Source: Streptomyces griseoluteus (lineage in GTDB: Bacteria; Actinomycetota; Actinomycetes; Streptomycetales; Streptomycetaceae). From it: DNA of 64,000 nucleotides. The stretch covers positions 12,751 through 76,750 of the forward strand of contig JOBE01000060.1 of NCBI GenBank assembly GCA_000717735.1, written 5' to 3'. The position numbers were made by a program, and so were the translations under genes. The notes below the pieces were generated by a model, which was given only the letters and a program-made list of their open reading frames with translations, did no database searches and was not told the DNA's origin. Of this stretch, positions 28,557 through 36,132 are shown piece by piece. The number at the start of each line of letters is the position of its first letter. Positions within the stretch are counted from its first letter, which is position 1.

Positions 28557-29705
28557 CTAGTGGCCCCTGCGAGGTCCTGGTGGCAGCGCCGCCTGCGCCT
28601 GCGGTTGGGGTTGCTGCGCCGTCCACGCCGGGGGATACGCCGCGGCGTACCGCTGCGCGTGTCCGTGTACGCCCGTGCTCAGCGCCGTACCGAAGGCCCG
28701 GAAGCTCAACCCCTCCTCGCCGCTGCGGTCACCCGGCAGCGTGCGGAACGACCTGCGGTACTCCGAGAACAGGGCGTCGTAGATCGGCGTGGCCGAAGGG
28801 CCCGCCGTGACGTCCTGCGCGGGGCGCATCGAAGGGATCTGACTCGGATACGGCTGGGGGAAGGGGTCGTATGCGTGCACGTAGGTGCCAACGACCCCGC
28901 CGCCCGTCGGATGCGGGCGGCTCTCCGAATGGGGTGCCCGCCGGGGACGCGGCACGGTCGGAGTCCCCGGTGTGCCCGTGGGACCGGCCGGTCCCACGGG
29001 CACACCGGGGAGCTGCTGGCCGATCGAGCCCACCGGGGCGGCGAAGACCAGCACGGTGTGCGACTTGTTGGCCGCCGCACGCCAGCCCTCGGTCACCTGG
29101 AGCGGCTGGTGCGCCTGCCACCAGGCGGCCTGACCGGCGCCGCCGGGACCCGGCTGGAGGACGGAGTGCAGCTGGCCCATGGCGACCAGGACCGACCAGC
29201 CCGGCAGCGCCGCCGGCTTCGCGTTCAGGTCCATGACCTGCTGGAAGCCCTGGTCGGCGAGGAGCGGCAGGAACTCGTCGGTGAGGCCGTCCGAACCCGG
29301 GCGGGCCACGGGGGCGGTCGGCTCCACGACGAGCGCCGGGTGCAGCTCGCCCTCGATCAGGACGAGACCGCTCGTGACGCCGAGCACGGCCTGCTCGGGG
29401 TGGGCGGCGGTGAGCGCGGCTGCGGTGTCCGTCGCCGTGATCGAGGCGACGGCTCCCTGGAGCTGCTCCTCGGCGACCCGGACGACCTGCGACGGAATGC
29501 AGCTGGCGTGGGCGAACGCCAGGACCGCGGTCTCCTCGCCGACGAACAGCACCGTGCTGGTGCGCTCCTGATCGGAGTCCCCCGGCGTGCGGCAGGAGGT
29601 GCAGTCGTAGCTGCCCGGGGCGTTGTCGCCGGCGAGCAGCCGGTCCGCTTCTTCGTCGCCGATCTCGGCGCGTACGTCCTCGCTGACGTCGAGCATGCGC
29701 GGCAC
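28557..29705 (-). CDS. Conserved Streptomyces hypothetical protein with Pro-rich C-terminal half
   Basis: 382 residues. Residues 1-200 are a folded, soluble-looking domain (VSEDVRAEIGDEEADRLLAGD, SYDCTSCRTPGDSD with a CxxC pair, HASCIPSQVVRVAEEQ). The rest is Pro/Gly/Ala-rich and ends in a Gln/Pro/Ala tract. The linker VPVGPAGPTGTPGTP is encoded by a perfect 48-bp palindrome (28964-29011). I do not recognise a characterised family. The CxxC pair with later Cys may bind zinc. Divergent from the LysM gene. Confidence 0.7.
   Translation of the reverse strand: MPRMLDVSEDVRAEIGDEEADRLLAGDNAPGSYDCTSCRTPGDSDQERTSTVLFVGEETAVLAFAHASCIPSQVVRVAEEQLQGAVASITATDTAAALTAAHPEQAVLGVTSGLVLIEGELHPALVVEPTAPVARPGSDGLTDEFLPLLADQGFQQVMDLNAKPAALPGWSVLVAMGQLHSVLQPGPGGAGQAAWWQAHQPLQVTEGWRAAANKSHTVLVFAAPVGSIGQQLPGVPVGPAGPTGTPGTPTVPRPRRAPHSESRPHPTGGGVVGTYVHAYDPFPQPYPSQIPSMRPAQDVTAGPSATPIYDALFSEYRRSFRTLPGDRSGEEGLSFRAFGTALSTGVHGHAQRYAAAYPPAWTAQQPQPQAQAALPPGPRRGH
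28964..29011. repeat. Perfect 48-bp palindrome inside a coding sequence
   Basis: Each base from 28964 to 28987 pairs with its partner from 29011 to 28988, with no central spacer; the core is GGACCGGCCGGTCC. It is in frame within the Pro/Gly linker of the hypothetical gene. Confidence 0.9.
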
Positions 29706-29913: not shown

Positions 29914-30567
<654 letters not shown>

Positions 30568-30574
30568 TCCGCCG

Positions 30575-31219
30575 TCACGTGAGCTCGGCCGGTTCCCCGC
30601 TGAACGCGAGGGAGCCGCGCCGCAGCTCGTGCACCAGCGAGCCGGGCGGCAGCCCGTCCGGTACGCGCTGCTCGGCGAGCACCACCGCGGCCCCGCCCTC
30701 CACGGCGAGCGCCGCGAGGCGCCGGTACGTACGGGCCGCGACCGGCGGGGCCAGACCGAGCGAGGGCTCGTCGACGAGCACCACGCGCGCGTGGGCCGCC
30801 AGGAGGGCGCGCGAGAGCGCCAGCATGCGGCGCTCCCCACCGGAGAGGGTTCCGGCGGTCCGGGACAGCAGGGGGACGAGTTCCGGGTACGGGGGAGCTG
30901 CCCCGGGCGCGGAGAGCGCGAGGTTCTCGGCGACCGTGAGGCCCGCGTACACCGCCTCCAGGTCGGGTACGAAGCACAGTCCGCGGCGTGCCCGTTCGTG
31001 GGCCCGCAGCCGGGTCACGTCGTCGCCGCGCCACAGGACCCGGCCCGCGGAGAGGCGCACCGTGCCCGCGAGGGCGCCCAGGGCCGTCGTACGCCCCGAG
31101 CCGTTCCGGCCCAGGAGCACGGTGACCGTACCGGCCGGCACGGGCAGGTCCAGGCCGTGCAGGGCCTCCAGCGGGCCGTAGCGGACCCGTGCGCCGCGCA
31201 GGGCCATGGCGAGGGTCAT
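30575..31219 (-). CDS. LivF-type ABC ATPase with Arg in Walker A
   Basis: 214 residues, second ATPase of a branched-chain amino acid-type importer. Signature LSGGERRMLALSRALL (about residue 125), Walker B VVLVDEPSLGLAPP, and the LivF-typical AEQ in place of the switch His are normal. The Walker A loop at about residue 35 reads GRNGSGRTT: the invariant Lys is Arg (codon CGT on the sense strand). Start overlaps the upstream stop by four bases (ATGA). Together with the LivG domain of the upstream fusion protein it would form the ATPase pair. Confidence 0.88.
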   Translation of the reverse strand: MTLAMALRGARVRYGPLEALHGLDLPVPAGTVTVLLGRNGSGRTTALGALAGTVRLSAGRVLWRGDDVTRLRAHERARRGLCFVPDLEAVYAGLTVAENLALSAPGAAPPYPELVPLLSRTAGTLSGGERRMLALSRALLAAHARVVLVDEPSLGLAPPVAARTYRRLAALAVEGGAAVVLAEQRVPDGLPPGSLVHELRRGSLAFSGEPAELT

Positions 31220-33783
31220 GACACGATCCGGCCGCCTTCCATGGTGTGCACCGTGTGGGCGATCCCGGCGACCAGGTCCAGGTCGTGCTCGACGACCAGG
31301 ACCGTCAGGCCGTCGGCGGCCAGCGCGGCGAGGATCCGGGCGAGTGCGGCCGTCTCGGCGGTGTCGAGACCGGCGGCGGGCTCGTCGAGGAGCAGGGTGT
31401 GCGGCTGCCCGGCGAGCGCGCGTGCCAGCTCGACCCGGCGCAGGACTCCGGTGGGCAGGTCGGCCGCCGGCTCGTGCCGTACCCGTCCGGCGAGCCCGAG
31501 CAGCCGGAGGCTCCGCTCGACGGCAGCGGGGTCTGTACGGATCCTGCCCTGCTCCTGGCCGAGGCGGACGTTCTCCTCGACGGTGAGCGAGGGGAAGACG
31601 GCGAGGCGCTGGAACGTGCGGGCGATGCCGAGTCTTGTGCGGGTGTGGGCGGGGCGGGAGGTGATGTCGGTGCCGTCGAGGGTGACCCGGCCGTGGTGGG
31701 GACGGAGGGTTCCGGCGAGACAGTCGAACAGGGTGGACTTGCCGGCGCCGTTGGGGCCGACGAGGGCGGTGACGCGGGAGGGGGCGAGGCGGAGGGTGAC
31801 GTCGCTCAGGGCGCTGACCCCTCCGGGGTAGGTGACGGTGAGGTGGTGGGCGTGGAGCCGTGCGGGTGCGGGGGCGGGTGCGGGGGCCGGTGCGGCGCGG
31901 TGGGGGTGCGTCCGGCCTTCGGCCGGACCGGGGTTCCCACGCGCACCACCCGTGCTGCTTATCGACAGAGGTGTGGGTCTTCCCGTGGGGGGTGCCTCGC
32001 CGTCGGCGGCCTTCCGTGAGGGGGCCTTCCGGGGGAGCAGATTCATCAGGGGCGGGATCCGGCCCGTCAGTGCCGCCAGGAGGCCGAGGAGGAGGGCTGC
32101 CGCGCCCGCGTGCGGGCCCGCGTCCAGGGTTACCAGGAGGGTGGCCGCCGCCAGCGGGGTCAGCAGGCTGTCGGCGCCCAGGACCAGGACCGCGGCGAAC
32201 CACAGCAGACCCCGCACCGGGTCGTACGCCTCCGGCTCGTAGGCGCGCAGGCCCATGCCGAGGAGGACGCCGCCGAGGGCCGCCAGGGCCGCGCCCAGGA
32301 CGAACGCCAGGAGCTTCAGACGGGGGACGGGGACGCCCGAGGCCTCCGCGCCCGGCTCGTGGTCCCGCAGGGCGGCGAGCGCCCTGCCCGTACGGCCCCG
32401 GCGGAGCGCCGCCACCAGGGCCAGGCAGCCCGCCAGGACGAGGAGTTCGAGGGCGTAGAAGGCGCGGTCGTCGGAGAAGCCCGCCGGGCGGCCGAGGGAC
32501 AGGCCGGCCGTCGCGTACGGCTGGGTGAGGACGAAGCGGCTCACCGCCACCCCCGTCGCGAGGGTCACGAGCGCGAGCGCCAGGCCGTGCCTTCGGATGG
32601 CGGGCCGGCCCGTCAGCAGGCCCACCGCGGCCACCAGTGGCACCGCGAGCCCGAGCGCCACGAGGCCCGGCACCCCACGTGTCGTCAGGAGGGCCGTGAA
32701 GAGGGCGCCCAGACCCGCGTACGCCGCCTGCCCCAGGGCGATCTGGCCTCCCCGTCCCGCCACCACGACCAGGGACAGGAGGATCACCGCGAGCGCCGGG
32801 ACCTGGATCGCCGTGTGCAGGTCCGAGCCGGCGAACCCGAGCGGGAGGAGCAGCAGCACGCCCACGACGAGCCACACGCCCCCCGGCACCCGGCCGGAGC
32901 GCACCGGCGGCGGCAGCGCGTCCCGGCCCTTGCCGCCGATCCCCGGCAGGACGAGCGCCGCCACCAGGAGCGCCACCACGAACAGGTTCGCCCCGACGGC
33001 CTGGAGCAGCGCTCCCGCCCAGCCCTCCGGGTGCAGCCGGGTCAGCTGGGCCTGCGCCACGCCGATCGCGAGCGCGGCGGCCACCGCGACCGGCAGCGAC
33101 CGCATCCGGGCGATGACCGCGACGGCGATCACCTCGACGACGAGCAGCGGCATCCCGTACGGGTCGAGCCTCAGGTACGGGGCGAGCAGCACCCCGGTGA
33201 GCCCGGCCGTGAACGAGCCGAACGCCCAGCCGGCCGCCGCGACCCGGTCCGCGTCGATCCCGGACAGCACCGCGAGCGGACGGTTGTCGATCACGGCGCG
33301 CAGCTCCCGGCCGAACCGCGTCCACCGGGTCACCGCGCCCACCAGACAGGCGAGCGCCACCACCGCCCCGAGCTGCGCCCAGGGGTCGTCGCCGAGGAGC
33401 ACCGGAGCGTCGTCCTGTGCCCCCGGGCCCCACAGGAGCACCGCCGCGCCCACGAGCAGGACGAAGACGCCGATCGAGGCCACCAGGGTCCGCGCCGGGT
33501 CCGCCCCGCGCCGCGCGAGGGGCCGGAACACCGCGCGGTCCAGGACGAGCCCGACGCCGGGGGCGACCAGCAGGAGGGTGACGAGGGCGCCCAGGGGCAG
33601 CGGCCAGTGCCAGACGACGACCAGCTGGCGCAGTACGTACGCGCAGATCATGGCTACCGCGCCGTGCGCCAGGTTCAGCACGCCGGTCGCCCGGTGGGTG
33701 ACGACGAGGCCGATCCCGGTGAGCGCGGCCGCGCTGCCGACCGCGAGACCGGCGAGCGTCAGCTCGTACGTCAGGGAGGCCAT
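31216..33783 (-). CDS. Fused LivH-LivM-LivG: two permeases and one ATPase of a branched-chain-type ABC importer
   Basis: 855 residues in one frame. Residues 1-285 are a LivH permease (VVTHRATGVLNLAHGAVAMICAY), about 299-590 a LivM permease (GRGGQIALGQAAYAGLGALF), about 590-642 a linker with alternating Pro-Ala, and 643-855 a LivG ATPase. The ATPase has an intact Walker A (VGPNGAGKST, about residue 676), Q-loop (ARTFQRL), Walker B (LLLDEPAAGLD) and switch His (VEHD), but the signature LSxGQ is LPTGV. ATG at 33783 overlaps the upstream stop (TGATG). Usual Liv systems encode these as three genes. Substrate unknown; binding protein is on the other strand at 34840. Confidence 0.92.
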   Translation of the reverse strand: MASLTYELTLAGLAVGSAAALTGIGLVVTHRATGVLNLAHGAVAMICAYVLRQLVVVWHWPLPLGALVTLLLVAPGVGLVLDRAVFRPLARRGADPARTLVASIGVFVLLVGAAVLLWGPGAQDDAPVLLGDDPWAQLGAVVALACLVGAVTRWTRFGRELRAVIDNRPLAVLSGIDADRVAAAGWAFGSFTAGLTGVLLAPYLRLDPYGMPLLVVEVIAVAVIARMRSLPVAVAAALAIGVAQAQLTRLHPEGWAGALLQAVGANLFVVALLVAALVLPGIGGKGRDALPPPVRSGRVPGGVWLVVGVLLLLPLGFAGSDLHTAIQVPALAVILLSLVVVAGRGGQIALGQAAYAGLGALFTALLTTRGVPGLVALGLAVPLVAAVGLLTGRPAIRRHGLALALVTLATGVAVSRFVLTQPYATAGLSLGRPAGFSDDRAFYALELLVLAGCLALVAALRRGRTGRALAALRDHEPGAEASGVPVPRLKLLAFVLGAALAALGGVLLGMGLRAYEPEAYDPVRGLLWFAAVLVLGADSLLTPLAAATLLVTLDAGPHAGAAALLLGLLAALTGRIPPLMNLLPRKAPSRKAADGEAPPTGRPTPLSISSTGGARGNPGPAEGRTHPHRAAPAPAPAPAPARLHAHHLTVTYPGGVSALSDVTLRLAPSRVTALVGPNGAGKSTLFDCLAGTLRPHHGRVTLDGTDITSRPAHTRTRLGIARTFQRLAVFPSLTVEENVRLGQEQGRIRTDPAAVERSLRLLGLAGRVRHEPAADLPTGVLRRVELARALAGQPHTLLLDEPAAGLDTAETAALARILAALAADGLTVLVVEHDLDLVAGIAHTVHTMEGGRIVS

Positions 33784-34205
33784 CAGGACGGCCACGGTTC
33801 GCACACCGGGCAGGGGGCCAGGGACGCCTTGCCCGCCTCCACCGCGTCCGCCTTGCCCGCCACCAGCGGGCAGTCCGGCCGGTGCGCCAGGGTTCCGCCG
33901 GGGACCCGGAGCAGCGGGCCGTCGGGGGAAGGGGCCGCAGGGTCCGGCTCAGTCCCGGGCTCGGGGCGGATCGGCTCAGGGCGGCCCGCTTCCGGAGGGC
34001 GTACGGGAAGCGCGTACGCCGTCGCCACGAGCACCGCGCCCGCCACGATCAGTGCCGCTCCCGGCACCGTGCACGAGGCCAGATAGGGCAGCTGCCGCTC
34101 CGCGAACCGTTCGCCGGAGATCCCGTACCAGCCGAGCACGCACAGCACCGCGCCTCCGGCGGTCGCCGCGAGGCCGGCCCACAGCAGGATGCGGGATGTC
34201 GGCAC
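33783..34205 (-). CDS. Small membrane protein with cysteine-rich tail, upstream of the Liv fusion
   Basis: 140 residues from GTG 34205 (GGGAG upstream). Two transmembrane segments (ILLWAGLAATAGGAVLCVLGW and CTVPGAALIVAGAVLVATAYAL) flank a short loop; a Pro/Glu-rich linker follows, and the tail has HRPDCPLV and APCPVC, a His/Cys set that could bind a metal. I do not recognise the family. The overlap with the transporter gene (TGATG) suggests it is an accessory subunit of that system. Confidence 0.72.
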   Translation of the reverse strand: MPTSRILLWAGLAATAGGAVLCVLGWYGISGERFAERQLPYLASCTVPGAALIVAGAVLVATAYALPVRPPEAGRPEPIRPEPGTEPDPAAPSPDGPLLRVPGGTLAHRPDCPLVAGKADAVEAGKASLAPCPVCEPWPS

Positions 34206-34319: not shown

Positions 34320-34862
34320 GTGGTGAGCCAGATGGTTTTCGAACGACCCGGCCGACGTCCCCGGCTCGCGGCACTCGTGGCCGCCGCCGTCCTGGTGCTC
34401 ACGCCCGCCGTGGCGAGCTGCTCCGACGACGGAGAAGGGCGCTCCACGGACCTGGAGACATCGGCACCGCCCGGGATGACGGCCCTGCCCCCCGACGCCG
34501 ACGAGCCCGACGACCCCGCCGCCGCGGAGGCGGAGATCACCGAGAACTGGACGGCGTTCTTCGACCCGAAGACCCCCGTCGACCAGAAGGTGCGGCTCCT
34601 GGAGAACGGGGAGGAGATGCGGGACGTCCTCGGGGCCTTCGCCGGTGACAAGAACGCGGCCATGACCTCGGCGAAGGTCACGGGCGCCGAGTTCACCTCC
34701 GACACCGAGGCGAACGTGACGTACGACCTGCTGGTCGGCGGAAACCCGGCCCTGCCCGACGCGCAGGGCACCTCGGTCCTCCAGGACGACACCTGGAAGG
34801 TCTCCGTGAGGACCCTGTGCGGCCTGGTCGAGATGAGCGGTGTCACCGTCCAGGGCTGCTGA
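34320..34862 (+). CDS. Low-molecular-weight lipoprotein
   Basis: 180 residues starting from GTG 34320 (GAGGGA 6 bases upstream; GTG 34323 and ATG 34332 are alternatives). A signal peptide ends in the lipobox VASC, then an acidic Ser/Pro linker and a compact domain (AEITENWTAFFDPKTPVDQKVRLLENG, AKVTGAEFTSDTEANVTYDLLVGG) like the small Streptomyces lipoproteins with a SnoaL/NTF2-type fold. Its last 23 bases overlap the substrate-binding protein start, so it is co-translated with it. Function unknown. Confidence 0.75.
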   Translation: MVSQMVFERPGRRPRLAALVAAAVLVLTPAVASCSDDGEGRSTDLETSAPPGMTALPPDADEPDDPAAAEAEITENWTAFFDPKTPVDQKVRLLENGEEMRDVLGAFAGDKNAAMTSAKVTGAEFTSDTEANVTYDLLVGGNPALPDAQGTSVLQDDTWKVSVRTLCGLVEMSGVTVQGC

Positions 34863-36132
34863 GGCGGCAGCCGGGCTGCTCCTGGCCCTCACGCTGCTCC
34901 TCCTCACGGCCTGCGGCAGCCGGCTCCCGGAGCGCGCCTTCGAGACGCGGCCCACCGTCCACCCCTCCGGCGGTGAGCCGCTCCGCGTCGGGATCATCAC
35001 CAGCGCCACGGGCCCGGTCGGCGGGCAGGCCCTCATCGGGCCGCGCGACGGAGCCCGCGCCTACTTCGACGCGCTCAACGCCCGCGGCGGTCTCGACGGG
35101 CGCCGCATCGAGGTGGAGACCTGCGACGACGGGGGCAGCGGCGTCGGCAACAACACGTGCGTGCACCGGCTGATCGACGAACGCCGGGTCTTCGCCCTCG
35201 TCGCCACCACCGCCCTCGACTACGAGGGCGCGCCGCTCGTCGCCCGCGCCGGCGTCCCCGACATCGGCGGCCAGCCCCTCACCCCCGCGTACGACACCCA
35301 TCCGCACCTCTACGGGATCTACGGCAGCTCCGCCCCGCGTACCGGCGAGAAGCCCGGCTGGGACGGGACCCTGTACGGCGGGACCGAGGTCTACCGGTGG
35401 TTCGCGCAGGAGCGGGGCGCCAGGACCGCCGCCGTCGTCTCCTACAACCAGGCCGCGTCCGCCGCGTACGCCCGGCTCGTCACCCGGGGACTGCGTGCCG
35501 AGGGCTACCGGGTCGTCGAGGAGCAGGTGGACTTCGCCCTGCCCAACTTCCGCGCCGTGGCGGCCGACCTGCGGGCCCAGCACGTCGACGTCCTCTTCGA
35601 CGCCATGGACACCCACGGCAACGTGCGCCTGTGCGAGGCGATGGAGACCCTCGGGGTCCGGGTCGACGCCAAGGTCACCCACGTGCAGAACTGGTCCTCG
35701 TCCGTCGCCCGCGACTACGCCCGCGCCCCCGGCTGCCGGGACGCCCTCTGGGTGACCGGCGCCAGCCGCAACCACCAGGACACCGGACACCCGGCCGTCC
35801 GCGAGTTCCGCGCGGCGATGGGGGACCGGCCGCTGTCCCAGTGGCAGCTGGAGGGCTGGGCGGCGGCCATGTGGTTCACCGACGCGGCCCGCTCCTGCCT
35901 CGCCGGGGACGGACTCACCCGGGCGTGCGTCGAGGAGTACATGAACCGCCCCGAGCCGTACACCGCACGGGGACTGCTGCTGCCCGTCCGCTTCGAGCAC
36001 CTGGACCGGCCCCCCGCGACCCGGAACACCTGTCTCTCCGTGGCCCGTTGGCAGGACGGCCGGGGCTGGGTGAGCCAGGGCGAGATGACGCGGAACTGCG
36101 CGACCGTGCCCCAGCTCGGCTACCGGCCGTGA
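34840..36132 (+). CDS. LivK-type ABC substrate-binding lipoprotein
   Basis: 430 residues. Lipobox LLTAC near residue 25, then a type I periplasmic-binding fold: PLRVGIITSATGPVGGQALIGPRDGARAYFDALNARGGLDGRRIEVETCDDGG and the central lobe VDVLFDAMDTHGNVRLCEAMETLG. Binds an amino acid-like or other small ligand outside the cell for the divergent LivHMG/LivF transporter. GTG start at 34840 within the preceding gene. Confidence 0.88.
   Translation: MSPSRAAEAAAGLLLALTLLLLTACGSRLPERAFETRPTVHPSGGEPLRVGIITSATGPVGGQALIGPRDGARAYFDALNARGGLDGRRIEVETCDDGGSGVGNNTCVHRLIDERRVFALVATTALDYEGAPLVARAGVPDIGGQPLTPAYDTHPHLYGIYGSSAPRTGEKPGWDGTLYGGTEVYRWFAQERGARTAAVVSYNQAASAAYARLVTRGLRAEGYRVVEEQVDFALPNFRAVAADLRAQHVDVLFDAMDTHGNVRLCEAMETLGVRVDAKVTHVQNWSSSVARDYARAPGCRDALWVTGASRNHQDTGHPAVREFRAAMGDRPLSQWQLEGWAAAMWFTDAARSCLAGDGLTRACVEEYMNRPEPYTARGLLLPVRFEHLDRPPATRNTCLSVARWQDGRGWVSQGEMTRNCATVPQLGYRP

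Follow-up and report, generated by a model that had tools for sequence, protein, structure and literature searches.

Does a Liv-type importer of Streptomyces griseoluteus hydrolyse ATP at two sites or at one? The question is raised by a locus on contig JOBE01000060.1 (GCA_000717735.1), within an analysed stretch of 64,000 nucleotides that is referred to here as the window. A first-pass annotation of this locus described a fused protein in which the LivG domain combines an intact Walker A (GPNGAGKST) with the signature LPTGV, and a separate LivF protein with the signature LSGGE and the Walker A GRNGSGRTT, i.e., Arg for Lys. With the Walker A of one subunit paired to the signature of the other, one ATP site would be canonical and the other would carry both defects. 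The annotation took LSxGQ as the standard for LivG, regarded asymmetric sites as known mainly from heterodimeric exporters, was aware of none in Liv importers, and proposed a homologue alignment in which Lys in the LivF Walker A, or LSxGQ in the LivG signature, would speak for sequencing error or scattered drift. When the sequence was re-read at the locus, motifs, translation and coordinates agreed with this description (Table 1).

Three minus-strand genes overlap here, namely, those for a small membrane protein, the fused livH-livM-livG protein and livF, and the start of livF overlaps the end of the fused gene by ATGA. Two BPD_transp_2 domains are thus encoded together with LivG- and LivF-type ATPases, and a linked gene encodes a Peripla_BP-type protein, the predicted binding partner. 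On these domains, the transporter is probably a Liv/HAAT-type ABC importer. The best NCBIfam matches were UrtD and LivG for the ATPase part of the fused protein, and UrtE and LivF for LivF; none of the four equivalog cut-offs was reached by either ATPase. An ordinary LivF/LivG pair is also present in the same genome, along with other LivF/LivG-type genes. A scan for sigma-70 promoters and terminators found no site, which carries little weight at this G+C content.

Table 1. Genes of the importer locus and sequence motifs of its two ATPases (window positions)
Feature	Positions	Strand	Basis
livF, separate ATPase subunit, 214 aa, ATG start	30575..31219	-	Translation; Pfam, one ABC_tran
livH-livM-livG fused gene, 855 aa	31216..33783	-	Pfam, two BPD_transp_2 stretches and one ABC_tran
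Small membrane protein of 140 aa, first of the three overlapping genes	33783..34205	-	TGATG overlap with fused gene
Substrate-binding lipoprotein, Peripla_BP_6, likely partner	34840..36132	+	Pfam
LivF Walker A GRNGSGRTT, Arg43 replacing Lys (altered)	31085..31111	-	Sequence and alignment
LivG signature LPTGV (altered)	31444..31458	-	Sequence and alignment
LivF H-loop stretch LAEQ, Gln replacing His (altered, family-wide)	30668..30679	-	Sequence and alignment
LivF Q-loop stretch VPDLEAVY, Asp at Gln position (altered)	30947..30970	-	Sequence and alignment
LivG Walker A GPNGAGKST (intact)	31732..31758	-	Sequence and alignment
LivG H-loop stretch LVVEHD, His retained (intact)	31282..31299	-	Sequence and alignment
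LivF signature LSGGE (intact)	30833..30847	-	Sequence and alignment

The alignment of orthologs comprised 118 loci, from which 98 distinct LivG/LivF pairs were retained after dropping 20 exact duplicates, and near-duplicates within one species may persist among them; L022, L031 and L039, with an unreadable LivF, and L133, with no LivG in its short stretch, were left out. Position 7 of the LivF Walker A was found to be Arg in 97 pairs and Cys in one, and the LivG signature reads L-x-T-G in every pair, so that both changes co-occur in 98/98. Neither a Walker A lysine in LivF nor an LSxGQ signature in LivG was seen in this clade, and conservation across the 98 pairs rules out sequencing error or scattered drift as the origin of the changes. 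The fifth position of the LivG signature is T in 81 pairs, V in 8, A in 7 and L in 2, which makes the Val of the window a minority form. Arg43 is encoded by CGC (43), CGT (36) or CGG (18) and belongs to the 52 of 214 LivF columns that are conserved at ≥97%, with LivF identity to the window ranging from 57 to 97%; the use of three codons, and a conserved column despite 57% identity, indicate that the residue is kept and has not merely stayed unchanged. The exceptional Cys occurs in the LivF Walker A of L179 (genome G527), which reads GPNGSGCTT with the codon TGC. Among the database matches listed, the pattern GRNG[SAC]GR[TS][TS] fits 120/120 for LivF (of 3389), and those for the fused protein (120 of 1693) have LPTG in 118 and LPTR in one, with the search pattern unmatched in one.

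All canonical residues come together in one composite site, formed by the Lys, Gln, Glu and His of LivG and the LSGG of LivF. The LivG Walker A lysine is kept in 95 and the Q-loop Gln in all of the 96 readable pairs (LivG is truncated before Walker A in 2 of the 98), the H-loop EHD with its His is found in 98/98, and the LivF signature is LSGGE in 91 pairs and LSGGQ in 7, i.e., LSGG in all. The second site has both an altered Walker A and an altered signature in each of the 98 pairs, and the H-loop position of LivF is Gln in 97 and Arg in one. A change of the catalytic Walker B Glu, which would also mark a degenerate site, was not observed; LivF keeps Asp-Glu in the form DEP in 98/98.

To what extent this is unusual depends on the ordinary members of the family, for which 30 actinobacterial loci were taken from the 54 matching among 80 genomes, chosen by likeness to the ordinary LivF of this genome. 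Ordinary LivF has the Walker A Lys and an H-loop Gln in 30/30, and in 29/30 its Q-loop position is occupied by Glu. Ordinary LivG has the H-loop His in 30/30 and the signature L-x-Y-G in 25/30, with LSGG in none, and LSxGQ is for this reason the wrong yardstick for LivG. The Thermotoga LivF-type structure 1ji0 aligns with the same Glu and Gln as ordinary LivF, and it is also the best Foldseek match. Given these motif states and 1ji0, ordinary members too have their odd site where the LivF Walker A meets the LivG signature. The locus shares with ordinary LivFGHM systems its permease and ATPase families, a LivF without the H-loop His and a LivG without LSGG, and differs from them in the lost Walker A Lys and in L-x-T-G instead of the prevailing L-x-Y-G. 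Judged by these motifs, the Streptomyces pair takes one step beyond an asymmetry that ordinary LivF/LivG pairs already have. The composite sites described by the first-pass annotation stand, and the two changes occur together as it asked, but the idea that such asymmetry is foreign to Liv importers is not supported. A literature search with partial coverage of titles and abstract beginnings returned no entry on LivF/LivG site asymmetry.

In the LivF tree, for which 78 of 140 pairs were used, one branch separates the 42 rows with Lys from the rest (support 100/97). With all Lys rows on one side of this branch, a single loss of the lysine suffices, and the co-occurrence is one inherited state that provides no statistical test of coupling. 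The nearest group with Lys, L171-L178 from another family of the order, keeps the LivF lysine in 8/8 loci and has LivG signatures of the form LPTGT in 6/8, with LPGGT and LPIGT in the other two. The LivG signature change is consequently not tied to the loss of the LivF lysine, and it probably came before it. The LivF proteins of this sister group also have Pro at the H-loop position (AEP) and a Walker B reading DEL, not DEP, both in 8/8.

Fusion of LivG to the permeases was considered as a cause of the site changes and ruled out, as the changes are also found in orthologs whose LivG is separate. Of the 68 ortholog loci over 9 kb, 57 have LivG and the permease part in a single frame and 10 do not have LivG joined to the complete permease part, among them L096, whose permease is itself split between two frames; the remaining locus, L116, lacks a permease. 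In intact loci only LivF has lost the Walker A lysine. The one LivG exception is L116 (genome G080), with GPNGAGRST and hence Arg there too; it has no permease match within 30 kb, and the small protein, the binding protein and the other tested neighbours are absent, so that L116 looks like a relic or a relocated copy. The loss of the LivG lysine alongside the permease suits the notion that the important site is the one on LivG, as a single case.

An ortholog of LivF was found in 143 of 392 Streptomyces genomes (E up to 1e-45, own genome counted; weakest 5e-60), and all 143 reading frames are open throughout, with no internal stops; 72 of these places were read (30 loci, 20 of the next 27, 20 of the weakest 22, and two more), and the other 71 are known by scores alone. 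The relatives that carry a name belong to Streptomyces or Wenjunlia, and an order-wide search at E up to 1e-36 gave matches in 109 of 293 genomes, spread over 4 of 9 genera. Relative to the window, this system has a median identity of 75% (LivF) and 72% (LivG); the ordinary proteins of two Streptomyces genomes share 89.5% (LivF) and 76.3% (LivG) identity. Selection on both proteins is purifying, though not tight, with median dN/dS (NG86) of 0.36 for LivF and 0.35 for LivG over pairs that are non-independent and include duplicates. The predicted LivF has a complete ATPase fold (pLDDT 95.7, from an alignment including distant ATPases), with an ordinary P-loop followed by an ordinary helix; an earlier prediction from 39 close relatives reached pLDDT 70, with parts after Walker A below 50.

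The neighbourhood was compared over 9 kb in 75 loci (67 orthologs and 8 nearer relatives, the window excluded). Of these, 72 have the small protein upstream, 66 the binding protein and 59 der. Pfam and NCBIfam give no match to the small protein, whose core GWYxxSGE...QLPYLAS...PGAALIV is nearly invariant among 76 distinct homologs; it has 1056 database homologs, and the names among the 120 listed are hypothetical, uncharacterized, secreted protein and lipoprotein. Ortholog small proteins add HRxxCPLV...CPxC, absent from the sister-clade rows shown, which looks like a metal-binding pair. It is possible that the small protein is an extra subunit of the transporter. Beside livF, a plus-strand gene (29923-30567) encodes Transglycosylase-like (PF06737) and LysM domains and is nearby in 61/75 loci, and a minus-strand open reading frame (28557-29705) is near livF in 62/75.

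Comparable site pairs exist in other ABC transporters. The families that NCBIfam places nearest to a sugar-importer query are AraG, XylG, RbsA and MglA, all below cut-off; these are sugar importers of the CUT2 type. Thirty of 45 places were read for this type. The Walker A residue is Lys in the first domain and Arg in the second in 30/30, the second-domain signature is LSGGN in 30/30, the H-loop His is found in the first domain only, and LSGGQ occurs in none of the 25 first-domain signatures shown. A view of asymmetry as mainly an exporter trait is not supported. These importers share with our locus the cross-paired arrangement in which the second Walker A has Arg; unlike it, they take up sugar, have a second Walker A of the form G-x-x-G-x-G-R-[ST]-x and carry both ATPase domains in one protein, whereas here LivG is fused to permeases and LivF is separate. 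A degenerate site has been reported in RbsA; the literature search, in its partial coverage of titles and abstract beginnings, returned none on RbsA ATP sites.

Nearly the same pair of changes is found in human ABCG5/G8, where the ABCG5 signature ISTGE and the ABCG8 Walker A GSSGCGRAS form one altered site (PMC7756502, PMC7756269). Sterol export is unimpaired when this site is scrambled, the other site being sufficient (PMC8403869, PMC7756502), ATP binding to ABCG8 with its P-loop Arg is markedly down (PMC8403869), and a changed Walker B Glu is the second most frequent alteration in human degenerate-site cases (PMC7756269). ABCG5/G8 is a eukaryotic sterol exporter of a different family, and we infer that the resemblance must be convergent. 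Functional asymmetry in an importer is described for E. coli DppABCDF, for which one report states that, when DppA was absent, ATP analogues bound DppF only, and that both Dpp ATPases have functional motifs and hydrolyse ATP once DppA is present (PMC12136057). In these motifs Dpp differs from the pair studied here.

The explanation that we consider likely is that the importer has one hydrolytic site, its second site being an interface without hydrolysis. ATP would be hydrolysed between the Walker A, Q-loop Gln, Walker B Glu and H-loop His of LivG and the LSGGE of LivF. The opposite site, with Arg in the LivF Walker A, neither Q-loop Gln nor H-loop His, and LPTG[TV] from LivG, would most likely bind nucleotide weakly or hold it unhydrolysed, and may serve as a structural hinge. 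This model is supported by the near-invariant Arg and the invariant L-x-T-G next to the retained residues of the intact site, by the single loss of the lysine and its restriction to LivF in intact loci, by the complete fold predicted for LivF, and by ABCG5/G8, for whose sterol export the altered site is dispensable. Counting against it are the retained Walker B Glu of LivF, a residue that unconstrained decay would not have to spare and that could mean residual hydrolysis, and the ability of Arg to replace Lys in some cases.

These two points lead to the strongest of the competing explanations, an unlikely one in our judgement, in which Arg replaces Lys, LPTG closes on ATP and two ATP are used per cycle as in a symmetric transporter. 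The kept Asp-Glu, the ordinary P-loop and helix of the predicted fold and the ordinary LivG signatures, which differ from LSGGQ in 30/30 loci, fit such a cycle, as do the Dpp ATPases, which both hydrolyse with the binding protein although one bound analogue without it. Against it, both the Q-loop Gln and the H-loop His are missing from this site as well, the Cys of L179 cannot functionally replace Lys or Arg, and ABCG8, whose P-loop has Arg, binds markedly less ATP.

It is considerably less probable that LivF is a relic and that its substitutions reflect relaxed drift in a dispensable transporter. The limited distribution in Streptomyces, the loose dN/dS values, the lost permease of L116 and the ordinary pair elsewhere in the genome would suit decay, but Arg persists through varied codons with all other intact-site residues in place, gene order is kept for the small protein and the binding protein, and the frames remain open. 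Other LivF/LivG-type genes in the genome would also allow the fused protein to dimerize with itself, or LivF to join the ATPase of another system, in which case the composite sites would not exist; the ATGA overlap, and the presence of LivG in the same stretch at all 94 loci with LivF above 240 bits (first set), make this very improbable.

A wider form of the one-site model, which we put forward as tentative and lean against, is that all Liv/HAAT importers are single-site with LivF as an evolved pseudo-ATPase half, this clade being the end state in which the ATP-gripping lysine of LivF is gone too, with one ATP per cycle and the conserved small protein, which has two helices, as an extra subunit. 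If the one-site model holds, it would provide a bacterial importer for testing the one-site cycle, which has so far been studied mostly in exporters, and its close relatives would allow comparison with a sister clade that has Lys and LPTGT and with ordinary pairs that have Lys and L-x-Y-G. It would also point to a family-wide LivF/LivG asymmetry that has parallels in AraG/RbsA-type importers and ABCG5/G8.
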